Source: Flavobacterium praedii
Lineage (GTDB): Bacteria > Bacteroidota > Bacteroidia > Flavobacteriales > Flavobacteriaceae
Assembly: GCF_026810365.1 (NCBI RefSeq)
Contig: NZ_CP113948.1
Location: 1,389,001-1,453,000, forward strand
DNA length: 64,000 bases
Direction of reading: 5' to 3'
This document shows, in pieces, positions 14,164 to 64,000 of the stretch. Position numbers and translations under genes: made by a program. Positions within the stretch are counted from its first letter, which is position 1. Each line of letters begins with the position of its first letter. The notes beneath the pieces were generated by a model that worked only from the letters and a program-made list of their open reading frames with translations, did not search any database and had not been told where the DNA came from.

Positions 14164-15207
14164 ATGAACTGGAAAGTACAACTCATCAAACATCGTGGTG
14201 TGAGCAGAATCGCCATATATTTCGAAAAAAATCAAGAATGGATTGATCGAATAAAACTGCTAGAAGATTCCCGATGGAGCCAAACACTAGGCGTCTGGCA
14301 TTTGCCTGACACCTTCGAAAACCGAATGATATTTCAAATTGTAAAATCTCCCGTACAATTACCATCAAAAGAAGGAATAGAACAAATCGAAAAATTCAAA
14401 CATTGGTTATTGTCCCGTCGCTATAGCGAAAGCACGATAAAAACCTACAGTGAATCCTTGAAATCCTTCCTAACATTTTACAACGACAAACCGGTCGCGG
14501 AAATATCAAACGATGATTTAATACGGTATAATAATGAATACATATTAAACAACAAATTATCCGAATCCTTTCAAAACCAAATTATTAATGCCTTAAAATT
14601 GTTTTTTTCTTCAATTAGAGAAACAAAAATGGAAATTGATAAAATGCATCGACCAAAACGAGCCAAATTATTACCCAATGTTTTGAGCAAGGAAGAAGTA
14701 AAAATGATATTAAATGCACATAATAACCTAAAACATAAAACGATGTTGAGTTTAATCTATGCATGCGGATTGCGCAGAAGCGAGCTTTTGCATTTAAAAC
14801 CTTCGGATATCGATTCAAAAAGAGGCATTGTAATTATTCGCCAAAGCAAAGGAAAAAAAGATAGAATAGCCCCTTTATCCGACAAGATTTTAGTCATGCT
14901 TCGAAATTATTATTTGGCATTTAGACCAAAAACGTGGTTATTTGAAGGTCATATAGTTGGAGAAATATATTCGGAAAAAAGTCTACAAAGTGTTTTAAAA
15001 AAAGCGTTAAAAAAAGTAGGCATAACCAAGCCCGTCAGTTTGCATTGGTTGCGACACAGTTTTGCGACCCATTTACTCGAAAGCGGAACCGATTTGCGAT
15101 ATATCCAAGAGCTTTTGGGTCATAACAGCAGTAAAACAACAGAAATTTACACGCACGTAAGTACCAAAAATATTCAACAAATAAAGAGTCCATTTGATGA
15201 TTTATAA
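14164..15207 (+). CDS. Tyrosine recombinase, probable integron integrase (Xer-like)
   Basis: A 347-residue tyrosine recombinase. An N-terminal extension (residues 1-65, with SRIAIYFEKN and WSQTLGVWHLPDT) precedes a SAM-like core-binding domain (about 75-155) and the catalytic domain. All catalytic residues are in place: R204 in CGLRRSE, K229 in SKGKKDR, H294 and R297 in LHWLRHSF, H320 in LLGHNS, and Y329 in TTEIYTHV. The C-terminus (GITKP, RHSFAT, SPFDDL) resembles IntI ends. However, the stretch between K229 and H294 is short, and I see none of the extra 16-20 residues that mark classical IntI. It lies directly before the first cassette junction and is oriented with the cassettes. It is the only recombinase in the window able to act on the 53 attC sites, so I infer that it is the array's integrase. 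Confidence 0.85.
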   Translation: MNWKVQLIKHRGVSRIAIYFEKNQEWIDRIKLLEDSRWSQTLGVWHLPDTFENRMIFQIVKSPVQLPSKEGIEQIEKFKHWLLSRRYSESTIKTYSESLKSFLTFYNDKPVAEISNDDLIRYNNEYILNNKLSESFQNQIINALKLFFSSIRETKMEIDKMHRPKRAKLLPNVLSKEEVKMILNAHNNLKHKTMLSLIYACGLRRSELLHLKPSDIDSKRGIVIIRQSKGKKDRIAPLSDKILVMLRNYYLAFRPKTWLFEGHIVGEIYSEKSLQSVLKKALKKVGITKPVSLHWLRHSFATHLLESGTDLRYIQELLGHNSSKTTEIYTHVSTKNIQQIKSPFDDL

Positions 15208-15309
15208 GAAATATTTTCTATTTTAGCAAAATAAAAGGGATGCCATTTACCAGACCTATCCACCCATTTTTGGGTAGATTGGCCTGACGATGTAAGACCT
15301 ATATACTAG
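15208..15309 (+). promoter_or_regulatory. Candidate attI site and array leader
   Basis: This is the only non-coding sequence between the integrase stop and the first cassette. The first cassette starts TTGGGCATC at 15310, exactly complementary to GATGCCCAA before its attC, which places the insertion point at G15309|T15310 within CTAGTTGGGC. Upstream, 15251-15286 forms a 16-pair imperfect hairpin (CAGACCTATCCACCCA, loop TTTT) with three mismatches. GATGCC at 15239 is also complementary to GGCATC just beyond the junction, so the region may fold rather like an attC. TATTTTAG at 15219 is a weak -7-like box that could be a cassette promoter (low confidence). The junction is directly supported; the exact attI limits are inference. 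Confidence 0.6.
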
Positions 15310-15359
15310 TTGGGCATCATTATAACTAATCGTACTAAATAAGAAACACAAAACAAACT

Positions 15360-16457
15360 ATGGCAAATCCTAAAGACATTTTAGTAATAACAACTTCTTC
15401 TGCAGAAGGTTTAAAAATTAAAAAACATCTAAAACCAGTTTCTGCTCATATTGTAGCAGGAACAAATTTATTTAGTGATTTTTTGGGAGGATTAACAGAT
15501 GTATTTGGAGGTCGTTCAAGTTCCTATCAAAAACAGCTTTCTTCTCTATATAATGAAGCAATTGAAAGAATAAAATACAATACACACGAAATTGGTGGAA
15601 ATTGTGTAATAGGTTTGAATATTGATATGGACGAAATTTCAGGAAAGGGAAAATCAATGTTTATGTTAACTGCCATAGGAACAGCAGTAATTATTGAAAA
15701 AGACGAAAAATTAAATTCATTATCGAACACGAATGAAAAGTTTGAAAATGTTGGAGTCGAAAGGATAAACAATTTAAGACAAAGAAAAAATATAATTGAA
15801 AAAGCTGAAAAACGAGAGTTACATTATGATGATGAAACTTGGAGTTTTATAACATCAAATCAAGTTCAAGAAGTTTTTCCAGCACTATTAAGGAGATATA
15901 CCAACGTAATTGAAAACTTTGAATCAATGCAAGATGCTTATAATTTTTTCAATAAAAATTTCATAAGCTATATTGATGCTCAAGAAGAAAGCAAAAAAGT
16001 AAGTTTACTTTACGACAAAATTGAAACCGAAACTAATCATCAAGTTGCTTTATATTTATCTAAAGTAATCAAAGAATTAAACTTATTTGATTATGAAAAA
16101 AATATGAGTTTACTTAAAAATTCAGATTTCAAAAAACAAAAAATTGGTTTAAGAATAGCGACTTATGACAAATCATTTTATGACAAAGAAGATATTGTAA
16201 ACTTAAATCAAACCAAGACTTTTATTTCTGAGACTTTTAAAGAAAGAGGCGAAATATCAACAAAAAAACAACTTTTATCATCGAAAGAAAAAGAAGTTTG
16301 GAATTGTGAATGTGGAAATAAATCCGTTGAAATTGGAGAATATTGCGGAAGTTGTAAAAATGATATTTTTGGATTTAAAGAATCTGAAATGAAACCAACC
16401 GACATTGTGAAATATATTGACCAAAAAATTGAACTAATAAACGAGTATATAAAATAA
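15360..16457 (+). CDS. Cassette 1: YbjQ-like (DUF74) protein with zinc ribbon
   Basis: 365 residues. The first ~110 residues (ILVITTSSAEGLKIKKHL, GGRSSSYQKQL, GGNCVIGLNIDMDEI) match the YbjQ/UPF0145 putative heavy-metal-binding fold, which forms pentamers in its relatives. A helical middle follows. The C-terminus (about 305-335) holds a CxC...CGSC zinc ribbon. It is the first gene of the array, so it should be the best expressed if a promoter lies at attI. Cellular role unknown. Confidence 0.75.
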   Translation: MANPKDILVITTSSAEGLKIKKHLKPVSAHIVAGTNLFSDFLGGLTDVFGGRSSSYQKQLSSLYNEAIERIKYNTHEIGGNCVIGLNIDMDEISGKGKSMFMLTAIGTAVIIEKDEKLNSLSNTNEKFENVGVERINNLRQRKNIIEKAEKRELHYDDETWSFITSNQVQEVFPALLRRYTNVIENFESMQDAYNFFNKNFISYIDAQEESKKVSLLYDKIETETNHQVALYLSKVIKELNLFDYEKNMSLLKNSDFKKQKIGLRIATYDKSFYDKEDIVNLNQTKTFISETFKERGEISTKKQLLSSKEKEVWNCECGNKSVEIGEYCGSCKNDIFGFKESEMKPTDIVKYIDQKIELINEYIK

Positions 16458-16461
16458 CGAT

Positions 16462-16593
16462 GCCCAACACACGCTACAAGCAAGCTGGGCAATTGGCTTA
16501 ATTTGAAAATAGTTTGTATTTGATGCATTTGTTTTTAACCGAAAGATTACGCATCTTTAATCCCAGCCTGCGTGTAGCGCGGGGACGTTAGCA
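16462..16593 (+). repeat. attC 1 (class B)
   Basis: Closes cassette 1 (15310-16587). Class B arms: CGCTACAAGCAAGCTGGG and CCCAGCCTGCGTGTAGCG, with a small hairpin AAAGATTACGCATCTTT in the variable part. The cassette tip TTGGGCATC pairs with GATGCCCAA before the site. Confidence 0.93.
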
Positions 16594-16625
16594 GAAATAG
16601 TAAACCAACACATATACATAACAAT

Positions 16626-17363
16626 ATGGGATTTTTTAACCTTTTTAGCTCTAAACAAAAAAAGCAAACTGATTTAAAAGAAAGTGATAAATTAAATTCA
16701 CAATCTGAAAAAATCACTATAAATATTAACAATGAAAAATACCTAAAACCGTCAAATTGGACATCCAATTATATTTACGGATTTATAAATGGTAATCCAG
16801 TACAAAAAATTGCTAACCAAAATAATTTAATAGAAATTATTAGAAATACGGTTGGAAATGGAAAAGGCTATATTGCAATTGACTCTATTTTTCATCCTTA
16901 TAACCTAATAAATCATAAAGGTGCTACAGCTTGGGATTTAGCTTGGTTTTGGTTATATGTTCAAGACCAAGGAAAAATTATTTCTGAAATTGCAAAAAAT
17001 GAAACTGCAACAATTGTTCAATCCGAAAAATTAAACTTAAATGAAAATTTTAGAATTTGGCCAAATGATAGTTTAAATCCAAGTAAGAATAAACAATATG
17101 ACAAATTTGTTCCCTTTATTCTACCTTACTTAACTTATTCGATAGATGATAATGATTATAAACATTGGATAAAAATGATAAATGCCGAATTGCAATTACA
17201 AGGACACGCTCATACTTACATAGAAAATTTCAATAGCGTTTTATCAAATAACATTGAAGGACATATAATGACTATAGGTTTTGGAGAATTTGACAGAGAA
17301 AATTTAGATGACTTAATAAATAAATTTACAAATTTTTATGACCAAAATATGAGTGAAAAATAG
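16626..17363 (+). CDS. Cassette 2: hypothetical protein
   Basis: 245 residues, N-terminus MGFFNLFSSKQKK followed by a charged linker, no membrane segment. I see no recognisable family. The middle carries GNGKGYIAIDSIFHPY and ATAWDLAWFWLYVQDQGKI. The gene fills its cassette (16588-17498), starting 39 bases from the cassette tip. Confidence 0.6.
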   Translation: MGFFNLFSSKQKKQTDLKESDKLNSQSEKITININNEKYLKPSNWTSNYIYGFINGNPVQKIANQNNLIEIIRNTVGNGKGYIAIDSIFHPYNLINHKGATAWDLAWFWLYVQDQGKIISEIAKNETATIVQSEKLNLNENFRIWPNDSLNPSKNKQYDKFVPFILPYLTYSIDDNDYKHWIKMINAELQLQGHAHTYIENFNSVLSNNIEGHIMTIGFGEFDRENLDDLINKFTNFYDQNMSEK

Positions 17364-17372
17364 AACTACTTC

Positions 17373-17504
17373 TGCTAACACACGCTACAAGCAATTTGGG
17401 TATTTGGCTAAATTTTAAGTTGGTCTTGTATTTGGAAGATTTGGCAAATCCGAATAATGGGCTTAATTTAGTCCCAAACTACTTGTAGCGCGGGGACGTT
17501 AGGC
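17373..17504 (+). repeat. attC 2 (class A)
   Basis: Closes cassette 2 (16588-17498). Class A arms: CGCTACAAGCAATTTGGG and CCCAAACTACTTGTAGCG. Tip TTAGCAGAAATAG against CTACTTCTGCTAA, one A-C mismatch at base 10. Confidence 0.93.
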
Positions 17505-17535
17505 ACAAGCTTAAAAGACGACACAATTAATAAAG

Positions 17536-18258
17536 ATGACCATAGACACAGAAATAGAAACTTTAGAACAAGCAAAGAGATATTTTATATCAATGGGATG
17601 CAGCGGTTTTCATATGATGCGAGAAAATCCTCAAAGATTTGATGAATACAAAGCACTTGATATTGACCCAAACATTGAATCTGAATGGATTAAAGAAGAG
17701 TTTGAAAACAAAATAGAGTATTTCAATACAAATCCGACAAATGAGTATGGACATCTCTTGAGAAGTTTGGACTCTATGATTGAACCAAAAGAATTCTATC
17801 TTGAGAAATTACTTGAATTAGTAATAAAAATAAAAGATAGAATACCGTTAGACCAAATAGAATATGTGTTGTCGACGATAATTGGAAATAATGGAACAAA
17901 ATCTAAAGGTGGTCTAATTCAAAAGTCTTATGATTTGAAACGACCTGATCTGGCAAATAAGTTTTATGCTCAGACAAAATTATTACTAAAAAAGACAGAA
18001 GAAAATTCGATTACCTTAAATTCTGTTCGAGGGTATTTGATTGATGTGATTGATTACTACAGAATAGAAGAAAGTAAAGAATTTATAATTGACTTGCGTG
18101 AAAAAAGTTATTCTGATCAATTTAATTATTTTAAGGACGGTGCGGAAGAAGGCAATAAATATTCAATGAAAATGCTTTCTGATTGTTATAAAGAAGGTAA
18201 AGGATGTATAACAGACATTGACAAATCAAAATATTGGGAACAAAGAGCGAAAGAATAA
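17536..18258 (+). CDS. Cassette 3: hypothetical protein with a C-terminal Sel1-like repeat
   Basis: 240 residues, mostly helical. The C-terminus GAEEGNKYSMKMLSDCYKEG followed by DKSKYWEQRAKE fits one Sel1-like (TPR-type) repeat, a protein-interaction motif. The N-terminal part (YFISMGCSGFHMMRENPQRF) is unassigned. No signal peptide. Confidence 0.6.
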   Translation: MTIDTEIETLEQAKRYFISMGCSGFHMMRENPQRFDEYKALDIDPNIESEWIKEEFENKIEYFNTNPTNEYGHLLRSLDSMIEPKEFYLEKLLELVIKIKDRIPLDQIEYVLSTIIGNNGTKSKGGLIQKSYDLKRPDLANKFYAQTKLLLKKTEENSITLNSVRGYLIDVIDYYRIEESKEFIIDLREKSYSDQFNYFKDGAEEGNKYSMKMLSDCYKEGKGCITDIDKSKYWEQRAKE

Positions 18259-18268
18259 AAAAGCCAGT

Positions 18269-18400
18269 GCCTAACACACGCTACAAGCAATTTGGGTATT
18301 AGGCTTAATTTAAATATGGTTTTGTATTTGGGAGATTTGGCAAATCCGAAGAATGGGCTTAATTTAGTCCCAAACTGCTTGTAGCGCGGGAACGTTACCA
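18269..18400 (+). repeat. attC 3 (class A)
   Basis: Closes cassette 3 (17499-18394). Tip TTAGGCAC pairs with GTGCCTAA; this R box is the classical GCCTAAC/GTTAGGC. Confidence 0.93.
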
Positions 18401-18423
18401 GCAATAATTCAAGAAAAGAAGTA

Positions 18424-19398
18424 ATGAAAACACCAAAATTATTAATACTAATTTTTCTATTATTAGGAAAACATATAAATGCTCAAAATAAAATTGACCA
18501 TTTTTTTAAAATAAAAATAGAACAATCTCTAATTTCGAGAGGAGATAATTTTCCGGATTTTAGAACAAACAAAGATAGTTTGGACGTGTTTTTATTTACA
18601 CTTCATAAAGGTTATTCTCCAAATGACTTTCAAAACTTTACAAAGTTTAAAGACGAAAAAATGTCAAATCTAATTTCCTTATTGGAATCCAAAAATTGGC
18701 TTCATCAAATAAATAATCAATACAAACCAACAGTTTTCATTGCCGACTCAAAAGATGGAAAATTACTTTATAAATATGCAAAACCCATTTCTAAAAAAAT
18801 AACAAAATCAATAACTAAAAATTTATCCGAAATAAAATCACAATTTGACAAAACGGAAATTTCAAAAAAACAAAATTTTCAAAAATGGTCATTTCTGATT
18901 TTAAGTGATGTTTTATTAGATTCTTGGCAAATTGATAACGTTGAAAAAGATTTTCTTAAGAAAGAAGATAGACCTTTAAGACATGGAAATTATTATTATT
19001 ACAAAATCAGTGAAAATACAAATCCACAAATAGAATCTTTTGGGATTTATGGCAATCAATCTCAAAAAATTGGAGATAAATATAATAGCGTTTATGGAAA
19101 TAACAGACTTAATTTAAGAATATCTTCATCTGAAAATCTAATTTCGAAATCAGACAACAAAATTTTCGATGAAATGGCTAAAATCTACTTACCTGACTTA
19201 TTAAAAATTTTAGAGGATGAAAGAAATTATAGTAAAAAGATATATGCTAAATTAGGCTATGACAAAGAAATATCTTTTGAAGAATTTTTTATTTGGTGGT
19301 ATCATTTCATTTATACACAATCAACTGACGAAATGAATAAAAAAGGAATTTTAACAATCCCAGCCGATGGAAATTTTGATTACGTAACAGAAGATTAA
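18424..19398 (+). CDS. Cassette 4: secreted hypothetical protein
   Basis: 324 residues with a clear Sec signal peptide (MKTPKLLILIFLLLGKHINA, cleavage before Q). The mature part is hydrophilic and unassigned, with repeated aromatic and lysine-rich stretches. It is probably periplasmic or outer-membrane associated. It ends 13 bases before attC 4. Confidence 0.6.
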   Translation: MKTPKLLILIFLLLGKHINAQNKIDHFFKIKIEQSLISRGDNFPDFRTNKDSLDVFLFTLHKGYSPNDFQNFTKFKDEKMSNLISLLESKNWLHQINNQYKPTVFIADSKDGKLLYKYAKPISKKITKSITKNLSEIKSQFDKTEISKKQNFQKWSFLILSDVLLDSWQIDNVEKDFLKKEDRPLRHGNYYYYKISENTNPQIESFGIYGNQSQKIGDKYNSVYGNNRLNLRISSSENLISKSDNKIFDEMAKIYLPDLLKILEDERNYSKKIYAKLGYDKEISFEEFFIWWYHFIYTQSTDEMNKKGILTIPADGNFDYVTED

Positions 19399-19409
19399 AT
19401 AATTACTGC

Positions 19410-19541
19410 TGGTAACACACGCTACAAGCAAGCTGGGCAATTGGTCTAATTTAAAAATAGTTTGTGTTTGATACATTTGTTTTTAACCGAAAGATTACGC
19501 ATCTTTAATCCCAGCCTGCGTGTAGCGCGGGAACGTTAGCG
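19410..19541 (+). repeat. attC 4 (class B)
   Basis: Closes cassette 4 (18395-19535). Tip TTACCAGCAATAATT pairs with AATTACTGCTGGTAA, 14 of 15. Confidence 0.93.
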
Positions 19542-19967
19542 ATTATTGTTCCGTTGAAATCGAGCAATTTACGTTAATAAGAAAGAAAAAATGGAAACTA
19601 ATCTGCTCCTACTCTGCCGACAAAAATCAAACGGAATTGATTGCGGATTTTGAAAGTCGAGTTTCAAAATGGAATTTGAAAGTCGATTTTTTTTGAGGTT
19701 TAAGAGGAATTTTATTCTCCTGATTTTTGGATTGCTTGAAAGTGTTTTCGGGACGGATTTTGAAAGTGGATAAACTTCCGCAATTGGAATGGATTATTGG
19801 AATCGATAATCAGAGGTGCTTAACTAGTGTGTCACAACAATCGCTAACACACGCTACAAGCAATTTGGGTATTTGGCTTAATTTGAAGGTGGTTTTGTGT
19901 CAGAAAGATTTGGCAAATCCGAAGAATAGGCTTAATTTAGTCCCAAACTGCTTTTAGCGCGGGAACG
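19536..19967 (+). other. Cassette 5: no credible gene (family N4)
   Basis: The cassette opens TTAGCGATTATTGTTCCG and is closely repeated at 49291-49749 and 58141-58598, with a relative at 48814-49290. It contains a GTCGAGTTTCAAAATGGAATTT-type repeat with a complementary-looking run, then a T-rich stretch at 19687-19694. A 76-codon frame with a TTG start runs into the attC and ends inside it, which argues against a real protein. A small RNA is possible. Confidence 0.6.
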
Positions 19968-19973
19968 TTACCA
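19842..19973 (+). repeat. attC 5 (class A)
   Basis: Closes gene-free cassette 5 (19536-19967). Tip TTAGCGATTATTGT pairs with ACAACAATCGCTAA. Confidence 0.93.
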
Positions 19974-20039
19974 GCTATTTTGACGCAGAGTCAAGAATCT
20001 AACGCAATTTTATAACCAAAAAATGTATAAAATTGTAGT

Positions 20040-21041
20040 ATGAAAACAGCTTACAAAAGACTCAATCGTGATCATAGAATTGAGATTGAAAAACTAATCG
20101 CTTTGGGCAAGAATAACAAACAAATTGCCACTACTCTCTCGGTTCATCCAAGCACCATTTCTAGAGAACTAAAAAGGGTTAAAAATGAACCTTATGACAA
20201 CCTAAAAGCAGAAGTAAATTATGTCCATAATCTAATGGACAGACGCTTAGGAACATCCAAAATTAACAGCAATCCAAAACTCAAAAAAATTGTATATTCA
20301 CAACTGGAATTACATTGGTCTCCAAAGCAAATTTCAGATGCTTTAAAACAATTTTATCCCTTTGATCCAACTATGCAAATCTCGCACGAAAGTATCTATT
20401 ATCACATCTATATTCAGCCTAAAAAAGAGGTCGAAAAATTGCTAATTTCTCAACTTAGGCAAAAGAGAAAATACAGAGGAAATACACGCCGAGGTGCTGA
20501 TAAAAGAACGACAATTAAAGACCCAATTCGCATTGATGAACGACCTGCCGAAGTACTCACTCGCGAGATACCAGGTCACTGGGAAGGCGACTTGGTACTG
20601 GGAAAGAACAGAGAAAGTGCTATTGGAACTCTGGTAGAAAGAACAACCCGATTTTTAATAATTGTACCTCTCAAAAAGAGAGATTCCACAACCGTGAGAA
20701 AAGCTTTTGAAAGCGAGTTTAGAAAGCTTCCTGACAACCTAAAATTATCTTTGACCTATGACAACGGAACCGAGATGGCACAACACAAAACCTTCACTAG
20801 AAATTCCAAGGTAAAAGTCTATTTTGCGCATCCATATAGTCCGTGGGAAAGACCAACAAATGAGAATACAAATGGGTTAATTAGAGACTATTTTCCCAAA
20901 GGAACTGACTTTAATTTAATATCAAAAAAGCAACTCAAAGAAGTACAAAATCAGCTTAATGAAAGGCCTCGAAAAACACTCGAATACGAATCGCCTCTTA
21001 ATACGATTAGTCGATTATATATGAACCAAAATTTTATTTAA
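20040..21041 (+). CDS. IS30-family transposase
   Basis: 333 residues: an N-terminal helix-turn-helix (IATTLSVHPSTISRELKR, about 29-46) of IS30 type, then a DDE domain with D184 in GHWEGDLVLG, D241 in TYDNGTEM and E275 in RPTNENTNGL, giving the D-33-E spacing of the family. It appears intact. It lies in the leader of cassette 6, separating the cassette tip from its gene, so the element probably inserted into an existing cassette. I could not fix terminal inverted repeats or a target duplication by eye. Confidence 0.92.
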   Translation: MKTAYKRLNRDHRIEIEKLIALGKNNKQIATTLSVHPSTISRELKRVKNEPYDNLKAEVNYVHNLMDRRLGTSKINSNPKLKKIVYSQLELHWSPKQISDALKQFYPFDPTMQISHESIYYHIYIQPKKEVEKLLISQLRQKRKYRGNTRRGADKRTTIKDPIRIDERPAEVLTREIPGHWEGDLVLGKNRESAIGTLVERTTRFLIIVPLKKRDSTTVRKAFESEFRKLPDNLKLSLTYDNGTEMAQHKTFTRNSKVKVYFAHPYSPWERPTNENTNGLIRDYFPKGTDFNLISKKQLKEVQNQLNERPRKTLEYESPLNTISRLYMNQNFI

Positions 21042-21080
21042 TATTAGGTAAATTCAAAATAAATCGTAGCTTTATTTTTT

Positions 21081-21126
21081 GAATTTAGAAAGCCTAAAGA
21101 CAATCAAAATCTGGCTTTCTGAATTT
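21081..21126 (+). terminator. Inverted repeat after the IS30 transposase
   Basis: GAATTTAGAAAGCC (21081-21094) and GGCTTTCTGAATTT (21113-21126) form a near-perfect stem with an 18-base loop. It lies 40 bases after the transposase stop and before the next gene. It could be a terminator or belong to the right end of the IS element. Confidence 0.45.
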
Positions 21127-21194
21127 GAAAAATAATGCAAAACTCTAAAGCAAAAAATTGCGCTAGAAACTTGAATCCGCCTGAAAAACCGAAA

Positions 21195-22094
21195 ATGAAA
21201 TACGACTTATTACATACAGAAATCTATCAAACTCCTTGTCCTGACTGCAAAGCAATTTCATTTCCAATTACGAATGAAAATTTATCAAATTATTTTCATG
21301 GAATTAAAATGAATTGTCCTAAATGTAATGCTAATCTTGACTGGTGGACTTTACTTTTAAGACACTTTGACTGGGAAGTTCCTTCATATACTTATGCGAT
21401 TGTAGGTGGATTTACAACTAGTTTGAGGATTTACATGAAAGCTGGTGAAATTTTTACTTTGAATTTAGAAGAAATTGGAATTCCTAAGGAATCTAAAATT
21501 CTTCAAATTAGTTATACTCCAAATGGAAATGGATTGTTTCCTATCGAATTACATGGAAATACACCGGCAAGGCATTACATTCCAAATAGTATCAATTTAT
21601 ATGGTCGTCCAATAGGAGAACCATCAGAAGAAACCCCTGTTGCTGTCCAAATTAATTGGGCAGAAAAATTAAATGATAATCAAATTTGGGAAAATCTTAT
21701 TAATGCTGTAGAGTCTTTTACTGTTAAAGATTATAATTCTTGTGTAATTCCATCAAATGTATCCGTAGAATCAACGCTATATAACATTATGACTAAATAT
21801 TTTTCTCCATTTTCCGCAAAAGATAGAGTTGAAGATTTTTTAAATAATGGAGCAACATATAGTCATCAACTAAATCTTTTACTTCCCCTAATTGCGCATA
21901 CTAATAGTTTTCCTAAAATGCCTGATAATATCAGAGGTAACTTAAATAAATTACGAGGTTACAGAAATTCACTAGCTCACAAAGGAAAAACAGATAAACA
22001 AATAGATAAAAAAACAGTTTCGGAATTAATATGTTCAGCAGCATTTGCTCTCTCTTATTTAAATTTACTAGAAGAAAAAATAAACGGAAACTAA
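21195..22094 (+). CDS. Cassette 6: zinc-ribbon protein with HEPN-like C-terminal motif
   Basis: I choose the ATG at 21195 (MKYDLLHTEIY), giving about 299 residues; an upstream in-frame ATG at 21135 may derive from IS-adjacent sequence. CPDC and CPKC pairs near residues 15 and 43 form a zinc ribbon. The C-terminal helices end in RGYRNSLAHKGK, an R-x4-H motif of the kind found in HEPN RNases. A nuclease or toxin role is therefore possible but unproven. The gene ends just before the attC tip. Confidence 0.6.
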   Translation: MKYDLLHTEIYQTPCPDCKAISFPITNENLSNYFHGIKMNCPKCNANLDWWTLLLRHFDWEVPSYTYAIVGGFTTSLRIYMKAGEIFTLNLEEIGIPKESKILQISYTPNGNGLFPIELHGNTPARHYIPNSINLYGRPIGEPSEETPVAVQINWAEKLNDNQIWENLINAVESFTVKDYNSCVIPSNVSVESTLYNIMTKYFSPFSAKDRVEDFLNNGATYSHQLNLLLPLIAHTNSFPKMPDNIRGNLNKLRGYRNSLAHKGKTDKQIDKKTVSELICSAAFALSYLNLLEEKINGN

Positions 22095-56755: not shown

Positions 56756-56778
56756 GCAATGCAAAAAAAACGAAGTAA

Positions 56779-57246
56779 ATGAAGTGGTTTAAAAGGTTAA
56801 TAATAAGCGTTTTAATATTATTATTTTTCTGTATCTTACTTTATAAACCCGATGGAATCAATTTAGAGGGGAATTGGGAAGCTAAAGAAATAGTATTAGA
56901 TAACAAGAAAATATATCCAGATTTATTAGCTACTATTATAGATTTTCCGCCTCAAATTATAATTAACGGTTGGACAAAATCAATTACAATTCCAGTAGAG
57001 AGAAATAATATAAGTGCAAGTTTACAATATGTTGAAAGTATAAAAGGAAACTATAAAATAAAGTTATCTTCAAGTGAGAAATCATTGAATGGAACTTTTG
57101 ATTTAATAGTCGATACCTTAGATATTGGACCACAAGCTTATATTGTAAATGTAAAATTAAAGTCAAACAAGACATTAATACATTTTCAAAGAACTGTAAT
57201 TATTCCTCCTTGGAAACCACCATTTCCGAAGAGAGGTCAAGTATAA
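56779..57246 (+). CDS. Cassette 47: membrane-anchored hypothetical protein
   Basis: 155 residues with an N-terminal anchor (LIISVLILLFFCILLYK) and a beta-rich periplasmic-type domain that starts INLEGNWEAKEIVLDNKKI, which resembles lipocalin-like starts. Pro-rich end (IPPWKPPFPKRGQV). Function unknown. Confidence 0.58.
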   Translation: MKWFKRLIISVLILLFFCILLYKPDGINLEGNWEAKEIVLDNKKIYPDLLATIIDFPPQIIINGWTKSITIPVERNNISASLQYVESIKGNYKIKLSSSEKSLNGTFDLIVDTLDIGPQAYIVNVKLKSNKTLIHFQRTVIIPPWKPPFPKRGQV

Positions 57247-57259
57247 ATAAATGCACAGC

Positions 57260-57392
57260 TGGTAACAGCCACTACAACGGATTTGGGCATTTGGCTTAAT
57301 GGGAAAATGGTTTTGTATTTGGGATGATTTGGCAAATCCGAAAATAGGGCTTAATTTAGTCCCAAACCCGCTGTAGTGCCAGAACGTTGGCG
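57260..57392 (+). repeat. attC 47 (class D)
   Basis: Closes cassette 47 (56750-57386). Tip TTACCAGC pairs with GCTGGTAA, then TGC with GCA. Confidence 0.92.
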
Positions 57393-57425
57393 GTCAGTTT
57401 AGCCGAACGAAACGAAATTAAAAGT

Positions 57426-58004
57426 ATGAATATAATCGAAAAATATAACATCGAAATTTTTACTGATAAAACTTATGAAGTTGGTTCTGCTGAAAATACA
57501 AATAAATATGATTCTGAATATTTAGAAGCTGAAAATAAATACAACTCAACTTTTGTTGGTATAAAAATATACGAAAACAAACAATTAATAAAAAGTGCAA
57601 TTATTGGCTCCGAAGGCGGAAACTCAGGAATAAGCGAAAACTCAAAAATTATTGAAAAAAACAGAATTTTAATATGCTGTGCTGATAAAATATTCTGTTT
57701 ATCGTTTCCTGAATTAAACCTTTTATGGAAAACTAAAGCAGACCAAATAAGTTGTTTTGAAATTTTTAAAAAGGATAATTTTTATATAGTTCACGGAGAA
57801 ACAGAAATTTCAAAGTTGGATGAAAACGGAATGATATTGTGGCAGAAAGGTGGAGCTGATATATTTACTACGATTAGTGGAAAAGATGATTTTGAACTAA
57901 ACGAAAAATATATAATTGCTACAGATTGGGAAAACAGAACTTATAAATTTGATTATGACGGAAATGAATTTACAGATATGAAACAATTTCCTTGGAATAA
58001 ATAA
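57426..58004 (+). CDS. Cassette 48: hypothetical beta-propeller-like protein
   Basis: 192 residues from ATG 57426. Repeated short strands with WDR/PQQ-type spacing (RILICCADKIFCLSFPELNL, ISKLDENGMILWQKGGAD, KYIIATDWENRTYKFDYDG) suggest a partial beta-propeller. No signal peptide, so cytoplasmic. Family not certain. Confidence 0.58.
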   Translation: MNIIEKYNIEIFTDKTYEVGSAENTNKYDSEYLEAENKYNSTFVGIKIYENKQLIKSAIIGSEGGNSGISENSKIIEKNRILICCADKIFCLSFPELNLLWKTKADQISCFEIFKKDNFYIVHGETEISKLDENGMILWQKGGADIFTTISGKDDFELNEKYIIATDWENRTYKFDYDGNEFTDMKQFPWNK

Positions 58005-58014
58005 AAAACCGAAC

Positions 58015-58146
58015 CGCCAACACACGCTACAAGCAATTTGGGGATTTGGCTTAATGGAAAAATTGGTTTGTAATTGGAAGATTTGGCAAATCCGAAAGAT
58101 AACGCTTATTTAGCCCCAAACTTCTTGTAGCGCGAGAACGTTAGCG
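58015..58146 (+). repeat. attC 48 (class A variant)
   Basis: Closes cassette 48 (57387-58140). Divergent interior: CGAAAGATAACGCTTATTTAG (split from the usual GGGCTTAATTTAG form), right spacer CGAGAAC. Confidence 0.9.
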
Positions 58147-58598
58147 ATTATTGTTCCGTTGAAATCGAGCAATTTACGTTAATAAGAAAGAAAAAATGGA
58201 AACTAATCTGCTCCTACTCTGCCGGCAAAAATCGAACGGAATTGTTTGCGGATTTTGAAAGTCGAGTTTCAAAATGGAATTTGAAAGTCGATTTTTTTTG
58301 CGGACTTTTTTCGCCGATTTTTTTTGAGGTTTAAGAGGAATTTTATTCTCCTGATTTTTGGATTGCTTGAAAGTGTTTTCGGGACGGATTTTGAAAGTGG
58401 ATAAACTTCCGCAATTGGAATGGATTATTGGAATCGATAATCAGAGGTGCTTAACTAGTGTGTCACAACAATCGCTAACACACGCTACAAGCAATTTGGG
58501 GATTTGGGTTAATTTAAAGTTGGTTTTGTGTCAGGAAGATTTGGCAAATCCGAAAATAGGGCTTAATTTAGTCCCAAACTGCTTTTAGCGCGGGGACG
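58141..58598 (+). other. Cassette 49: no gene (repeat family N4)
   Basis: 458 bases, very similar to 49291-49749. It includes T-rich CGATTTTTTTT runs at about 58290 and 58316, each preceded by GTCGA or GCCGA, which could be terminator-like ends of a short transcript. The 76-codon frame again runs into the attC. Confidence 0.6.
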
Positions 58599-58604
58599 TT
58601 AGGC
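58473..58604 (+). repeat. attC 49 (class A)
   Basis: Closes gene-free cassette 49 (58141-58598). Tip TTAGCGATTATTGT pairs with ACAACAATCGCTAA. Confidence 0.92.
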
Positions 58605-58635
58605 AACATTATAACAAAATCAGGAAACATAAGAA

Positions 58636-59106
58636 ATGAAGAAAACAATAAAATTATTATTAATTACTTTACTTGTTATATTTTGCTCTTGTGAATCCTA
58701 TACAGCTTCGTCCATAATTAATTCTTCTGAAAGGAATCTTTATCTAAAAATACAATACGATAAAGATACTATTGAAAAATATTTGGGAATAAAAATACAA
58801 AACGATGAAGACACAATTAAAAAATTCTTAGGAGGAACAGACCCTTTTAATGCATTATTCGTCGAAGAAAATTCACAGAAAGATATGTTCATAAAAGTAG
58901 ACTCTTTGAATTGCTTAATAGATGTTAAAATTACACCGAAAGATACTTTTGAAATCTGTGTAAATCGTGGTTCAGAACCAATATTTGAATACATTAAAAA
59001 TATTAAGATTTTTGGCAAAGACACCATTTTACTGCAAAACAGAGAAGAAATGCAAAAAGTTTTTCAAAAAGAAAGAACAGGAAAATTTGAACTTATAATT
59101 AAATAA
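58636..59106 (+). CDS. Cassette 50: lipoprotein
   Basis: 156 residues with lipobox signal MKKTIKLLLITLLVIFCSC. An internal duplication (IQYDKDTIEKYLGIK and IQNDEDTIKKFLGG) occupies about residues 39-68. Function unknown. Confidence 0.62.
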   Translation: MKKTIKLLLITLLVIFCSCESYTASSIINSSERNLYLKIQYDKDTIEKYLGIKIQNDEDTIKKFLGGTDPFNALFVEENSQKDMFIKVDSLNCLIDVKITPKDTFEICVNRGSEPIFEYIKNIKIFGKDTILLQNREEMQKVFQKERTGKFELIIK

Positions 59107-59110
59107 CGTT

Positions 59111-59243
59111 GCCTAACAGCTACTACAACGGATTTGGGTAATTGGCTTAATGGAGAGTTGGTTTTGTATTTGGGATGATTTGGCAAATCCGAAGAATGGG
59201 CTTAATTTAGTCCCAAACCCGCTGTAGTACCAGAACGTTACCA
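59111..59243 (+). repeat. attC 50 (class D variant)
   Basis: Closes cassette 50 (58599-59237). Arms TACTACAACGG and CCGCTGTAGTA with spacers AGC and CCAGAAC. Tip TTAGGCAAC pairs with GTTGCCTAA. Confidence 0.92.
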
Positions 59244-59251
59244 GTAACCCT

Positions 59252-59521
59252 ATGACAACATTATATTACAAAAGACATTTTAACGAAAGTCGGATTGAAA
59301 AATTCGAAACTTGGGGAACTTGTGACTATTATCTTGAATCAAATCAGAAAGGAGAAATACTTCGACAAATTGAAGTTTATGAAAATGGAAAAATATTAAA
59401 ATATAGTGAAGAATTAATAGAAGATGAGTTTGGATTTCTTGCAGACCAAAAAATCGACCTTTTAGAATTTGAAAAATTCATTATAAACAAAAAAGACTTT
59501 GAATATCAATGGGAAAAGTGA
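59252..59521 (+). CDS. Cassette 51: small partner of the macro-domain protein (copy 2)
   Basis: 89 residues, about 85 percent like the protein at 37296-37568 by eye, with the same overlap into the macro gene. Conservation of both members and their overlap in two cassettes indicates that they work as a unit. Confidence 0.7.
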   Translation: MTTLYYKRHFNESRIEKFETWGTCDYYLESNQKGEILRQIEVYENGKILKYSEELIEDEFGFLADQKIDLLEFEKFIINKKDFEYQWEK

Positions 59522-59985
59522 TCAATTATATTGTAGGTGATGCTACAAATCCGAAAATAATCGGTAATAAAATCATTGTCCATATTTGTAATGACATTGG
59601 AGGTTGGGGAAAAGGATTTGTAATGGCAATTTCTAAACGTTGGGCAGAACCTGAGAAAAAATATAGGGAGTGGTTTAAATCACAAGACAACTTCTTACTT
59701 GGACAAATACAGTTTGTAAGAGTTGAAGAGGATATTTGGATTGCAAATTTAATTGGACAGCATAGAATAAATATAGATGAAAATGGTAATGCTCCAATTC
59801 GTTACGATGCGATAAAAATTGGACTTGAAAAAGTTGCCCAATTTGCAAAAGAAAATAATACATCTGTCCACATGCCAAGAATTGGTTGCGGACTTGCAGG
59901 TGGAACTTGGGATAAAATAGAACCGCTAATACAGGAATCTTTACTGAACAATGAAATCGAAACTTATGTTTATGACATTAAGTGA
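59509..59985 (+). CDS. Cassette 51: macro-domain protein (copy 2)
   Basis: 158 residues with IIVHICNDIGGWGKGFVMAI and RIGCGLAGGTWDKIEP, collinear with the protein at 37553-38029. Many silent changes separate the two. The cassette carries a class D attC, whereas copy 1 carries class B. Confidence 0.85.
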   Translation: MGKVINYIVGDATNPKIIGNKIIVHICNDIGGWGKGFVMAISKRWAEPEKKYREWFKSQDNFLLGQIQFVRVEEDIWIANLIGQHRINIDENGNAPIRYDAIKIGLEKVAQFAKENNTSVHMPRIGCGLAGGTWDKIEPLIQESLLNNEIETYVYDIK

Positions 59986-59998
59986 GTAAAAGGGCTAC

Positions 59999-60130
59999 TG
60001 GTAACAGCCACTACAACGGATTTGGGCATTGGGCTTAATGGAAATATGGTTTTGTATTTGGATGATTTGGCAAATCCGAAAAATGATCTTAATTTAATCC
60101 CAAACCCGCTGTAGTGCCAGAACGTTAGTG
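59999..60130 (+). repeat. attC 51 (class D)
   Basis: Closes macro cassette 51 (59238-60124). Tip TTACCAGTAACCC pairs with GGGCTACTGGTAA. Against attC 25, G to C on one side is matched by C to G on the other. Confidence 0.92.
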
Positions 60131-60178
60131 GCAAGCGCCCGTGTGAAAACCAGAAAATTCAGGAATCTAACGCAACAA

Positions 60179-60415
60179 ATGAGAAATTACATAAATATAT
60201 TAGAAGAAATTGACGCAAAACTCAAACATACAGAATTTGAAAATTTTAGAATTGAGATTGAAATTCCATTTCGTAATTATTGTTCAGCGCTTGAAATTTG
60301 TTATGAAGTAAAGTCTAAAATGCAGAGTTTTGAACAGAAAAATAAAAAAATAAGAACCATAATTGGAACTCAAATTGATGAATTTTACGAATATTGTAAA
60401 TTCAATAAAATTTAA
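60179..60415 (+). CDS. Cassette 52: small hypothetical protein
   Basis: 79 residues from ATG 60179; a GTG at 60128 inside the cassette tip would lengthen it. Helical and charged (INILEEIDAKLKHTEFENFR), no membrane segment. Unknown family. Confidence 0.5.
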   Translation: MRNYINILEEIDAKLKHTEFENFRIEIEIPFRNYCSALEICYEVKSKMQSFEQKNKKIRTIIGTQIDEFYEYCKFNKI

Positions 60416-60421
60416 CGAATA

Positions 60422-60790
60422 ATGTATATCAGCGAAAAACATATAATTTACATTTATCCAATTTTGTTCATACTATTAGTTTTACCTATATTGCTAAAAT
60501 CACGAAAAGTAAATTTATTTAATAATTTCACCTTTGACAATTTAGTAGTAATTCTAAATAAATCTATTAAACATCAATTTTATATTGGAATAGTTGCCTT
60601 AATAATATCATCTATTATCGACAAAATATTTTATGGAAATATAAACAGATAAGGAAATATTTTTACTGCCCTATTTATAGAAACAACTTATTATTATATT
60701 GTATTGGGAATATTTGTGTATTTACCAATTGTTGGCTTTTTAAATTTGATTAATTTTGGAAAACAGAAATTGAAAAACAGAAATAACTGA
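60422..60790 (+). pseudogene. Cassette 52: membrane protein interrupted by an in-frame stop
   Basis: The first frame ends at TAA 60650-60652 after 76 codons (YGNINR). The same frame then continues for 45 more codons of coding-like membrane sequence (GNIFTALFIETTYYYIVLGI, then a helix and a basic end) to TGA at 60788. This looks like a nonsense mutation splitting a protein of about 122 residues with three to four helices. A genuine short protein is the alternative. Confidence 0.55.
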
Positions 60791-60891
60791 AGCGAAAAGT
60801 CGAGTAGGTAAAGGGGAATCTCACCCCTAAACCTCTCACAGAACCGTACGTGAACCTCTCGATTCATACGGCTCTTCTTAATTCAAGTCTT

Positions 60892-62154
60892 TTAAGGTCT
60901 GAAGCCTTCGTATTGCCAATGTTCAAACAGGTTTGGAAAGTCTCTTGATAACTTTTGAAGATATTTATACCCTACGTACCAAGGTTTCCTTCTGAAACGA
61001 CGGTATTTGTTTCGTATCCATTTGGTCAGGCGAAGATGCAGAACCTTGAAAAGTTTCCGCATTTCGCTCATTCGGAACTTGCCATAGTAATTTATCCAGC
61101 CTCGGAGTTTGAGCCTTAGTAGTTCCGCAATTTTACTTATCGGAAATTGAACCCATCGATGAAAATTCATTTCTTGGAGTTCTTTGACTATTCTGCTCCT
61201 ACTCTTTTGGCTCATTGCAGGCGAAAATCCTAATCTGATTTTCCCCCGTTCTTTCACTACTCGTGGCTTAAAGGTGTAACCTAAGAAGTCGAACTTTTGA
61301 TACCTTACCTTAAATGGTGGTTGGCGTTTTTGATTGCTTCGGCAATAGACGATTTTGGATTTCTCTTGGTTTAATTCCAATTTGCAATCTCGCAATCGCT
61401 CTTTTATTGACTGCATCAACCCTAACGCCTGCTTGATACTCTTGCAGTGAAGCACAATATCATCTGCATACCTTTGGAAAGGTGTAGTTGGACTTGTTTG
61501 GGTTATCCATTTATCAAACACTATATCCATAAAGATGTTGGCAAGTACAGGACTGATTACTCCGCCTTGTGGCGTGCCTTTTCCCTCTGGGTGTTTGATG
61601 GTTCCGTCTGCTAGCTGAACTGGTGCATTGAGCCAGCGTTTTACATACATCAAAATATGTTTCTCTTGCGTGTAAAACTGTACTGCTTTTAGCAATAATT
61701 CGTGATCAATGTTATCGAAAAACCCTTTGATGTCCAAATCAATTACCCAACTGTATTTCATACTGTTGATACGGCATTGCTCTAGGGCATCGTGTGCCGA
61801 TTTATTTGGTCTATAACCAAAACTGCTCGGATGGAAGTGTTTCTCTACTATTTGCTCCAATTCGGTAGCAATTACCTGTTGGGCAACTCTATCGACTATG
61901 GTAGGAATACCCAATGGACGCATTTTTCCATCGCTTTTGGGTATCAAAACTTGTCTGACGGCTTTGGGATAGTAACTCCCACTTGCCATTCTATTCCACA
62001 TTGGGTACAGATATTTGCGAGTGTTTTTGGTTACTGCTTCGATGGTTACTCCATCTACTCCACTAGCCCCTTTGTTGGCTTTTACTCTCTTAAAAGCTTC
62101 TTGTACCTGCAACTTACTTATCGGTTGCGACTTGGGTTGTTCATTAAAAATCAT
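60892..62154 (-). CDS. ltrA: Group II intron reverse transcriptase/maturase
   Basis: 420 residues. RT blocks are complete: IPKSDGKMRPLGIPTIVDR (71-89), SSFGYRPNKSAHDA (110-123), DIKGFFDNIDH (141-151), TPQGGVISPVLANI (194-207), and the catalytic YADD at 229-232. A maturase domain X follows (LKLRGWINYYGKF). No HNH endonuclease domain is seen after domain X, so this is an En-minus type that probably primes at replication forks. Apparently intact. Confidence 0.93.
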   Translation of the reverse strand: MIFNEQPKSQPISKLQVQEAFKRVKANKGASGVDGVTIEAVTKNTRKYLYPMWNRMASGSYYPKAVRQVLIPKSDGKMRPLGIPTIVDRVAQQVIATELEQIVEKHFHPSSFGYRPNKSAHDALEQCRINSMKYSWVIDLDIKGFFDNIDHELLLKAVQFYTQEKHILMYVKRWLNAPVQLADGTIKHPEGKGTPQGGVISPVLANIFMDIVFDKWITQTSPTTPFQRYADDIVLHCKSIKQALGLMQSIKERLRDCKLELNQEKSKIVYCRSNQKRQPPFKVRYQKFDFLGYTFKPRVVKERGKIRLGFSPAMSQKSRSRIVKELQEMNFHRWVQFPISKIAELLRLKLRGWINYYGKFRMSEMRKLFKVLHLRLTKWIRNKYRRFRRKPWYVGYKYLQKLSRDFPNLFEHWQYEGFRP

Positions 62155-62814
62155 CCTTAAATTGCTTTAAGTTGTTATACAATAAATCAACTAATTAAGT
62201 GAAGTCCTTCGCTCGCAGGGTCATTACTCCTACTCTCTTGGATATTTTCGCTACTACGACTTCATCCGTCCCAAGAACTAAACATTGCTACTTTCTGCCT
62301 TTTCCGCTCTGGGATTTTTGACATTTTTGCTTGTCATTTTAGTCTTGGTTCTCCTGTTCCCTACTAGAGCCTGGTTATAGTTCTTGCCCTCTTTATGCCG
62401 TGTGCCATGTAGCCAGTAATCAGGTTTTCCGCTACACTCTGTCTCGCTGGGTCGCTGACCCCATAGATTTTGACACAGTAAAAGTTATTTTCGACACCTC
62501 AATAAGGGTTTGCTTGCGCTCAACTCCTATAACCGCACCATACAGCTACTCAACATACAAACGTTGGCACTGCTTTGACCTTGACGCTCAATACCAAATT
62601 CTCTTTAAATCAGCACCTCAAGGCGGTTTGAAAACAACTCCTGAAAGTCCTATCCGATAGTCCAATTCTTTACTTGTAATCCTTTGTGAGACCTCCACGC
62701 TTCTTGGCGTGGCTCGTTTCTGAACACTCATAAAGCCTATCATCTCTAATAAAGTTATGTTGCCTTTTCAAAGAACTTTTATATCTTCGTATCCTAAGGC
62801 AACGCAGGACACAC
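62155..62814 (-). ncRNA. Group II intron 5' ribozyme part (domains I-IV)
   Basis: About 650 bases upstream of the maturase gene on the minus strand with higher GC than the cassettes and several visible stems (for example CCACGC...GCGTGG near 62692-62712 and AAGGCAAC pairing near 62758). This is expected for domain I-III RNA. A plus-strand frame here is a shadow. Confidence 0.7.
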
Positions 62815-62821
62815 AGCCAGC

Positions 62822-62953
62822 CACTAACACACGCTACAACGGATTTGGGCAATTGGCTTAATGGAAAAATTGGTTTGTATTTGGAAGATTTGGCAAATCC
62901 GAAAATTGGGCTTAATTTAGTCCCAAACCCGCTGTAGCGCGAGAACGTTGGTG
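62822..62953 (+). repeat. attC 52 (class C)
   Basis: Closes cassette 52 (60125-62947), whose tail holds the group II intron. Tip TTAGTGGC still pairs with GCCACTAA across the insertion. Confidence 0.92.
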
Positions 62954-63461
62954 GCAAGTTGCGCCGAAATTACGCAGGTAAATCCAATTTGAAAATAAAC
63001 AGTTTTTTCCGCCGCAAGTTTTCAAAGTAGAAGCGTGAAAATTGAAACCTGCCAACAGAAGCGTGAAAAATTGAAACTTGGAAAGCGGAAGCGTGAAAAT
63101 CGGAATCTGACAGTGGAAGCGTAAAAACAGAAACTTAAAAGTAGTTCGTCTAAAATTGAAAACTGAAAAGCAGCATTATGAAAGTTGGAACTTGCCGTTG
63201 AAACGTGAAAAGCAAAACTTGAAAAACACTGCGCCTAAAATTGAAAGCTGAAAAGTAAAAGTGTGAAAATTGGAATCTGAAAAGCAAAAGCGTTATAACT
63301 TTGCGGTTATTCGTAATTTCGACAGAACAACCAGCCACCAACACACGCTACAAGCAAGCTGGGCAATTGTCTTAATTTGAAGATAGTTTGTGTTTGATGC
63401 ATTTGTTTTTAACCGAAAGATTACGCATCTTTAATCCCAGCCTGCGTGTAGCGCGGGGACG
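62948..63461 (+). other. Cassette 53: no gene (repeat family N5, class B attC)
   Basis: 514 bases opening TTGGTGGCAAGTTGCGCC. AGAAGCGTGAAAATTGAAACC-type units (split here) recur about eight times between 63030 and 63290. No coding frame. Confidence 0.65.
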
Positions 63462-63467
63462 TTATGT
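63336..63467 (+). repeat. attC 53 (class B)
   Basis: Closes gene-free cassette 53 (62948-63461). The last complete site in the window. Tip TTGGTGGCAAGTTG faces CAACCAGCCACCAA. Confidence 0.92.
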
Positions 63468-63513
63468 GATAGTTTGCCAAAAAACCGCAGAAAAAGAATA
63501 ATAGTAATTGAAT

Positions 63514-63951
63514 ATGAAAAACATTCTAGCTCTAACAATTTCGCTAATCTTAGTGTTGATAAATGGTATTATTGGTCATTTTTTCCCACCAAATGGAATT
63601 GATTTTACTATAATATTAATTCCAACAATAACAGCAATTATTTGTTTTGCTTCCGAAAATCTGAACTCAATACTTAAAAGTTTATCTGTATCTTTTTTAG
63701 TAATCGCAAATGACATTTTAATAAAATTATATTCGGGTGGAACTCACGATTTGGAAGGATTGGAATGGATTCACTTTTTTATGTATTGTGGAATATTAAT
63801 CGGTCTAATAATTTTGTCGATAAACGTTATGAAAAATAAAAAAGAAAATCTCTACATAAAAATTTTATCGATAATTACATTTCCCTTTTTAATTTATATT
63901 TACTTACAATTTTTCTATCAATTAGGATTAGGAAGAAAGTATCCGATTTAA
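63514..63951 (+). CDS. Cassette 54: polytopic membrane protein (cassette end beyond window)
   Basis: 145 residues from ATG 63514. Five hydrophobic stretches (LALTISLILVLINGIIG, FTIILIPTITAIICF, SVSFLVIANDILIKLY, FFMYCGILIGLIILSI, FPFLIYIYLQFFYQLG). Family unknown. The cassette starts TTATGTGATAG at 63462. Its expected closing sequence (CTATCACATAAC-like) is not reached by position 64000. Confidence 0.6.
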   Translation: MKNILALTISLILVLINGIIGHFFPPNGIDFTIILIPTITAIICFASENLNSILKSLSVSFLVIANDILIKLYSGGTHDLEGLEWIHFFMYCGILIGLIILSINVMKNKKENLYIKILSIITFPFLIYIYLQFFYQLGLGRKYPI

Positions 63952-64000
63952 GCTGAAAATTATGATGTTAATATTAAAAAGGAAGCATAACTAACGAGAA
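63952..64000 (+). other. Tail of window inside cassette 54
   Basis: 49 bases after the last stop. AAGCATAACTAACG near 63985 superficially resembles an R'' box but does not complement this cassette's tip and is not followed by ACACGC. Confidence 0.4.

Follow-up and report, generated by a model that had tools for sequence, protein, structure and literature searches.

How can a long array of integron-type cassettes be built and shuffled beside a tyrosine recombinase that lacks the segment by which integron integrases are defined? This question is raised by a locus in the complete 4.17 Mb genome of Flavobacterium praedii (GCF_026810365.1, NZ_CP113948.1:1,389,001–1,453,000; this whole stretch of 64,000 nt is called the window below), in which the open reading frame (ORF) at 14164–15207 encodes a 347-residue tyrosine recombinase (Phage_integrase match, 1.4e-40). 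The gene is oriented toward the array, which corrects the initial reading. On its 3′ side lie a predicted attI and a series of attC-type sites (124–126 nt long in the window), 53 of them in the window (16466–63463) and another 22 within the 17 kb that follow, making up a 65 kb array of 75 sites that ends at window-scale position 81095. An earlier note, made from the letters of the window, had counted 53 attC-like repeats and at least 54 cassettes; the former count is exact for the window, and the latter corresponds to 53 complete cassettes and one truncated where the window stops. Measured from G|TT to the following AAC, the stretches are 311–2702 nt long (median, 554). A covariance model trained on the 53 window sites and searched against the whole genome gave 104 matches, comprising the array and smaller clusters near 155, 1514–1519, 1566, 1679, 2147–2161, 2835, and 3059 kb, part of them being weak opposite-strand or partial matches. 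We consider it likely that the locus is a 75-cassette chromosomal integron, in which an insert-less, XerA-like recombinase captures and shuffles cassettes via wobble-bearing attC hairpins predicted to form on single strands.

The individuality of the cassettes can be judged from their ends. Should cassettes exist as circles, the bases after the G|TT of each must pair with those before its own AAC, and in the array these bases lie hundreds of bases apart on two different attC sites. Over 6 nt, this R′/R″ complementarity is perfect within the own cassette for 72 of the 75 and 5/6 for the remaining three, giving a mean of 5.96, as compared with a mean of 2.91 and a maximum of 3.45 in 10,000 permutations of the cassettes. 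Because the array holds 31 distinct start hexamers, the complementarity is not due to one repeated motif. The array consists of tandem, oriented cassettes, each ending in attC, with G|TT junctions and exact boundaries, as is required of an integron. Six groups of cassettes (9=28, 13=69, 14=74, 15=71, 16=73, and 17=38=70) are 100% identical in the body and in their own downstream attC, with upstream attC sites just 62–94% identical, and cassettes 13, 14, 15, 16, and 17 recur reordered as 13, 17, 15, (72), 16, and 14. A second cluster, located 43 kb past the array, contains cassettes 61, 33, 32, 30, and 31, each matching its counterpart in the array at 100% in both body and attC. A duplicated segment would preserve its order, and identical cassettes that are shuffled therefore need transfer of single cassettes at G|TT. 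Judged by these identical cassettes in changed order, the cassettes of this locus are mobile in the sense in which those of integrons are.

By three sequence criteria (insert, profile score, and clade), the enzyme of the array is not an IntI. The KGxxDR and HxxRH motifs are 59 residues apart, and 58–59 residues apart in all 25 proteins of the new set, as compared with 100 in 15 of 15 canonical IntI and 62–66 in three Xer proteins; the new set comprises 24 proteins with a chain of sites or matches to R1 (an attC query tuned to this window) beside the gene, and L024, an orthologue on a short contig with neither, while the distance is lacking for 5 of the 72 other related proteins. The TIGR02249 profile aligns to the recombinase in two pieces (profile positions 2–176 and 238–315), leaving positions 177–237 unmatched, and since this gap is the place of the IntI insert, the insert is absent. 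The score of 211 bits is under the curated cut-off of 265 bits; the best NCBIfam match is NF040815 (XerA/integron integrase), with 219.5–220.1 bits at a curated cut-off of 220. In a tree obtained by a quick search, the IntI sequences form one clade with support of 100 and the window recombinase lies outside it, the tree having been built without 20 of the 30 canonical IntI loci (L139–L168), missed by the ORF motif filter, and without L004, L005, L067, L085, L104, L120, L123, and L126 (same filter or wrong ORF). An array-bearing tag in this tree was given to L113, which has a very long branch and is outside the set of 25, on one R1 hit. The approximately unbiased (AU) test rejects IntI and 11 array recombinases as one clade (p 0.00015). 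Hence the suspicion of the earlier note that the IntI-specific insert is missing is borne out by profile gap, motif spacing, and tree position, and its suggestion of an independent or very divergent integron lineage gains support from the IntI clade and the AU test.

The enzyme also carries an N-terminal extension, as had been proposed at the outset; it is real, because the SAM-like domain begins only near residue 75. Residues 1–57 are predicted to form a β-β-α-β-β-α fold (pLDDT, 83.8), and a pattern of the type WS-x(5)-W-x-[LV]-P is found in the N-terminal domain of many relatives. The top Foldseek match is the HARP domain of SMARCAL1 (4o66), HARP being a fork- and structure-binding domain. 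This likeness is weak (E, 0.32; prob, 0.54; 20% identity), as is that of the alignment profile, which also matches 4o66 (E, 0.69; fourth of six). The extension has no Pfam match and HARP is absent from its VIA list, so that the role suggested below for a HARP-like domain has to be weighed against these results. Among the relatives, extended N-termini occur at L102, L037, L038, and L080 (704 aa, about 610 aa, and 503 aa); by eye, L037 and L080 have apparent repeat copies of the N-terminal domain, and the 704-aa protein seems to have a second, degenerate recombinase half. Recombinases 50–52% identical over residues 99/127–347 are present on Klebsiella, Aeromonas, and Acinetobacter plasmids.

The attI was sought in 28 loci as a G|TT able to pair with the first attC. 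Such a G|TT lies 101 nt past the stop codon in F. praedii and at 100–102 nt in 10 of the 28 loci. The nine of these ten whose surroundings were compared share a short hairpin-like CCC..GGGT-type element and an inverted repeat of varying sequence, with TATATACTA or TATATACAA ahead of G|TT in eight of the nine, and the starts of the first cassettes are all different among them. In other loci, the G|TT was found at 41–300 nt; L047 gave no candidate, L067 lacked a clean ORF, and L042, L045, and L051 gave no convincing G|TT. As read from these junctions, an attI-like platform adjoins the recombinase gene, and together with the array it gives the element the integron features that were tested.

The attC sites of 13 new arrays and of 11 canonical IntI arrays (10 from genomes of the phylum and one on a Thiodictyon plasmid) were compared with the same script, the main array being represented in the comparison by 25 sites from a 26 kb stretch. 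Because the first chain finder barred bulges and could hide extrahelical bases, a gapped finder was used on both kinds; its cassette rule is symmetric and leaves it blind to orientation, which was set by the direction from recombinase to array. Exactly 14 nt after AAC (+14), a top-strand A stands against a G of the reverse-complemented arm in 101 of 103 new sites and in none of the 74 canonical sites, two of 105 new sites (one in L080 and one in L083) being out of this count because their arm alignment started at least 5 nt from AAC. One of the two new sites without this state, a 64-nt site of L064 just past a stop codon, is probably spurious, and in the whole main array the A/G state is found in 75 of 75 sites. 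It folds as a G·T wobble on the bottom strand and as an A·C mismatch on the top strand. Conversely, one or more extra bases on the canonical (5′, top-strand) arm occur in 73 of the 74 canonical sites, where they are usually two or three and correspond to the known extrahelical bases, versus only 1 of the 103 new sites. The outer stem differs as well. In the new sites, complementarity runs through position 11–12 after GTT, and in the canonical sites it is down to 25/63 and below from position 9. Position 8 is complementary in 1 of the 75 main-array sites and none of the 68 other new sites, versus 45 of 63 canonical sites; its base is A in 143 of 143 new sites, and forms a G·T pair on the bottom strand in 128 of them. 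A second wobble is placed nearer the stem base in many new sites. With fixed wobble positions in the inner (L, +14) and outer (R, +8) stems, we read each recombinase half-site as having one fixed wobble.

The predicted bottom-strand hairpin of 50 distinct window sites has 97.3% of cells paired and double changes at 12 of 23 pairs. On four of five measures no shuffle out of 500 reached the value of the real sites, and on the fifth 50 did, the alignment and the structure being derived from the same 50 sites. When the arms are joined, the bottom strand folds more stably in 75 of 75 main-array sites; the corresponding number for the canonical sites is 36 of 74. The proposal of the earlier note that attC may be recognized by a different solution is backed by these sites, whose canonical arm lacks conserved extrahelical bases and which have fixed G·T wobbles instead, a difference not noticed in that note.

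Based on these features, we infer that the recombinase of the array itself acts on a folded single strand. It would bind attI as a duplex and attC as a folded bottom strand, and the wobbles, which would become A·C mismatches if the top strand folded, may help to select the bottom strand in the way that extrahelical bases guide IntI. The HARP-like N-terminal domain might assist recognition of the hairpin or of its junction with unpaired DNA. A single strand exchange would then be completed by replication, as in known integrons.

The same combination is found in relatives. An orthologue of the recombinase at E≤1e-40 is present in 24 of 60 relatives, own genome included, and R1 matches at E≤0.1 lie on the stretch with the recombinase gene in 12 of 20 relatives' loci. 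Of the best 80 named loci, 8 have R1 matches. The gapped finder, which is blind to the arm sequences of the window, found chains of at least three sites in 8 of 34 named loci having at least 4 kb downstream. The named array loci are those of Flavobacterium aciduliphilum, F. enshiense, Algibacter onchidii, Rufibacter sp., a Flavobacteriaceae isolate, Winogradskyella ursingii, Seonamhaeicola aphaedonensis, and a Bacteroidetes metagenome-assembled genome; four further loci (L044, L050, L051, and L055) bear chains, and all 12 chains lie past the 3′ end of the recombinase gene. The array-bearing relatives belong to several Bacteroidota families. On canonical loci, the same finder gave chains of at least three sites in 11 of 21. 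Since chains of three also appeared in 2 of 123 random control sequences, the three-site arrays of L051, L081, and L102 (new) and of L185 and L187 (canonical) are weak when taken alone. Some relatives of the recombinase are annotated NF040815, 'site-specific tyrosine recombinase/integron integrase', a label that predates the present finding and was given by profile similarity.

Several observations weigh against the proposed recombinase-driven integron and have to be set beside those in its favor. Chains of at least three sites are found in just 12 of 100 loci chosen by their recombinase, many of them with little downstream DNA, and on a Chryseobacterium plasmid (L193) whose recombinase is 66% identical the gapped finder found no chain. 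Of the 103 new sites, 18 have an extra base on the other (3′) arm, and among the 80 new sites of other arrays the bottom strand is the more stable one in only 59, with 2 of 16 in L055. The cassette pair 30–31 is in the same order in the second cluster, and the tandem cassettes 18, 19, and 20 (31898–34552) have bodies 99.1–99.6% identical with own attC sites of neighboring pairs only 79–81% identical, contrary to the rule that attC travels with the body. The symmetric arms of attC could also be bound as double-stranded DNA. It is accordingly worth weighing, as an unlikely explanation, that attC is an ordinary inverted-repeat site used as a duplex, with its arm complementarity reflecting two facing half-sites; the enzyme is XerA-like and lacks the insert through which IntI deals with single strands, and attI contains repeats of varying sequence that resemble double-stranded half-sites. 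The arms are nonetheless complementary over ~20 bp despite sequence change, including the 12 pairs with double changes, and the G·T positions, of one polarity in all but two of the sites counted, are meaningful as pairs only on a folded strand. An array of dispersed palindromic repeats or of segmental duplications without cassettes is scarcely conceivable. Large repeat families with many near-identical copies do occur here, but such an array would not account for the complementarity within the own cassette, the exact G|TT boundaries, or the own attC moving with the body in changed order while the upstream attC differs.

Other enzymes could in principle do the work. A relic array, or one whose attC sites were assembled and are moved in trans by canonical IntI from a different replicon or from other cells, with the neighboring recombinase having another job, is quite improbable. 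In a survey of 121 genomes of the same genus (R1 hits at E≤1e-6, recombinase at E≤1e-60), R1 hits (76 genomes) and the recombinase (57) occur together in 40, an overlap short of significance (Fisher p 0.13). R1 hits alone are seen in 36 genomes, as would be expected of a relic or trans-served array, and 17 have the recombinase only. Among the genomes with at least 15 R1 hits, the recombinase is present in 12 of 14, the other two (G010 and G513) having none at E≤1e-60. Clusters that lack an integrase are a usual feature of integrons (PMC9668308). Because of this, and because R1 is tuned to the window, the co-occurrence test is weak in both directions. Other classes of the phylum commonly have canonical IntI, which is over the TIGR02249 cut-off in 105 of 395 genomes, but among the 107 genomes of the phylum that TIGR02249 matches at E≤1e-60 one is of the class of F. 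praedii and none of its genus, the other 106 being related at the level of the phylum, and no match over the curated cut-off exists in its own complete genome. Moreover, the sites are without the extrahelical bases on which IntI relies (PMC3053210, PMC4792948), and attI is at a fixed distance from the gene of the array recombinase in the 10 loci described above. Movement of the cassettes by the host XerC/XerD or another chromosomal tyrosine recombinase is very improbable: such enzymes are present in the genome, and one adjoins the second cluster, but four others are 26–35% identical to the array recombinase, and of the five other genes four are >27 kb from any R1 match, the fifth being that at the second cluster. 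The array-linked enzyme and attI are, by contrast, conserved together. The earlier note had named another integrase elsewhere in the genome as what would speak against its view, and these searches revealed neither an IntI over the cut-off nor a close homologue of the array enzyme.

The likeness to known systems helps to place the element. With canonical integrons it shares an attI platform, tandem oriented cassettes, the G|TT crossover, GTTRRRY/RYYYAAC boxes, R′/R″ complementarity for each cassette, hairpin attC, and cassette shuffling. It differs from them in having 59 rather than 100 residues between the two motifs, with the insert lacking, a recombinase outside the IntI clade with an extra N-terminal domain, and attC sites with fixed G·T wobbles, an 11–12 bp outer stem, a fixed mismatch at position 8, and no conserved extrahelical bases on the canonical arm. 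The gene aims at the array, unlike that of canonical integrons; in the integrons of Treponema, the integrase gene is likewise transcribed toward attI, in the direction of the cassettes, and these are described as intI integrons, the likeness resting on the described gene direction (PMC3607928). XerA/NF040815 is the best NCBIfam match and has the same catalytic fold, but XerA resolves chromosome dimers (PMC8138268), whereas the present gene codes for an additional N-terminal domain and is accompanied by an attI and an array. Within the 'integron-like' subgroup of tyrosine recombinases (Smyshlyaev 2021, PMC8138268), the insertion is not fully conserved and yet is called essential for integron function; in the part of that paper covered here, the insert-less members are not linked to arrays. 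The CTX-phi/IMEX system also has a Xer-type enzyme acting on a single-strand hairpin, but there a phage exploits the host XerCD at dif, with no attI and cassette array (PMC7790495).

In the cited literature, definitions of the integrase are built on the additional domain (PMC2426708, PMC9668308, PMC9176274), and a published screening pipeline keeps or discards integrases by I2 (PMC9176274). The I2 helix is described as necessary for cassette capture, as conferring single-strand recombination, and as present in no other protein (Escudero 2020, PMC7790495), and extrahelical bases as directing attC recognition and strand choice (PMC3053210, PMC4792948). In the open-licence PMC literature on integrons, with subscription papers and preprints outside its scope, we found no Bacteroidota integron class without the insert. 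As 75 cassettes with recent shuffling stand beside an enzyme without I2, either this account of I2 is contradicted or another recombinase is required. Bacteria have probably reached integron-type gene capture by a second route. With somewhat less assurance than for the integron itself, we favor the wider view that integrons evolved at least twice, the second class being widespread in Bacteroidota, with an XerA-like enzyme lacking I2 and with attC read through G·T wobbles in both half-sites and a HARP-like domain; screens based on I2 would discard it. The paired change of enzyme and site (no insert, no extrahelical bases, and fixed wobbles) would represent a testable second solution to structure-specific DNA recombination, and may open a large, little-read pool of cassettes in Bacteroidota and possibly recombination tools for these bacteria.

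Table 1. Features of the F. praedii locus in window coordinates, with the strand and, where given, the basis of the assignment.
Feature	Position	Strand	Basis
Tyrosine recombinase without the insert (347 aa), proposed as integron integrase for the array	14164..15207	+	profile and motif spacing
N-terminal extension, aa 1–69, predicted β-β-α-β-β-α domain, weakly HARP-like	14164..14370	+	structure prediction
Predicted attI; crossover G|TT at 15309–15311	15210..15311	+	pairing with first attC
Cassette array (runs on to window-scale 81095 in the genome)	15310..63461	+	
attC site 0, bottom strand predicted to fold	16466..16589	-	
attC site	17377..17500	-	
attC site	18273..18396	-	
attC site	19414..19537	-	
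attC site	19846..19969	-	
attC site	22109..22232	-	
attC site	22715..22839	-	
attC site	23360..23483	-	
attC site	24024..24147	-	
attC site	25054..25177	-	
attC site	26020..26143	-	
attC site	28447..28570	-	
attC site	29077..29201	-	
attC site	29598..29721	-	
attC site	30360..30483	-	
attC site	31208..31331	-	
attC site	31776..31899	-	
attC site	32440..32563	-	
attC site	33102..33226	-	
attC site	33765..33889	-	
attC site	34428..34552	-	
attC site	35038..35161	-	
attC site	36089..36212	-	
attC site	37159..37283	-	
attC site	38045..38168	-	
attC site	39977..40100	-	
attC site	40631..40755	-	
attC site	41470..41594	-	
attC site	42501..42624	-	
attC site	43315..43439	-	
attC site	44098..44221	-	
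attC site	44975..45099	-	
attC site	45635..45758	-	
attC site	46265..46388	-	
attC site	48691..48815	-	
attC site	49169..49292	-	
attC site	49628..49751	-	
attC site, divergent arms and loop	51100..51225	-	
attC site	51766..51889	-	
attC site	52339..52463	-	
attC site	52951..53074	-	
attC site	53808..53931	-	
attC site	54518..54641	-	
attC site	55131..55254	-	
attC site	55792..55915	-	
attC site	56627..56751	-	
attC site	57264..57388	-	
attC site	58019..58142	-	
attC site	58477..58600	-	
attC site	59115..59239	-	
attC site	60003..60126	-	
attC site	62826..62949	-	
attC site	63340..63463	-	

The cassette bodies at 23484–24023, 28571–29597, and 31332–34427 are full of degenerate AACTTGAA-type repeats and contain no ORF of at least 150 aa. 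One cassette, present in two copies (26231–28419 and 46475–48666; ~90% DNA identity), combines an EcoRI-type adenine methylase with a restriction enzyme of HNH/GmrSD-like type. A transposase with HTH_38 and rve domains, which we take to be IS30-like, is located inside a cassette at 20040–21041, and a group II intron with a reverse transcriptase/maturase ORF (60799–62672, minus strand) lies in the cassette flanked by the attC sites that start at 60003 and 62826. The tyrosine integrase adjoining the second, five-cassette cluster has 405 residues (L198:97–1314, minus strand), and a copy of the array recombinase is absent there.

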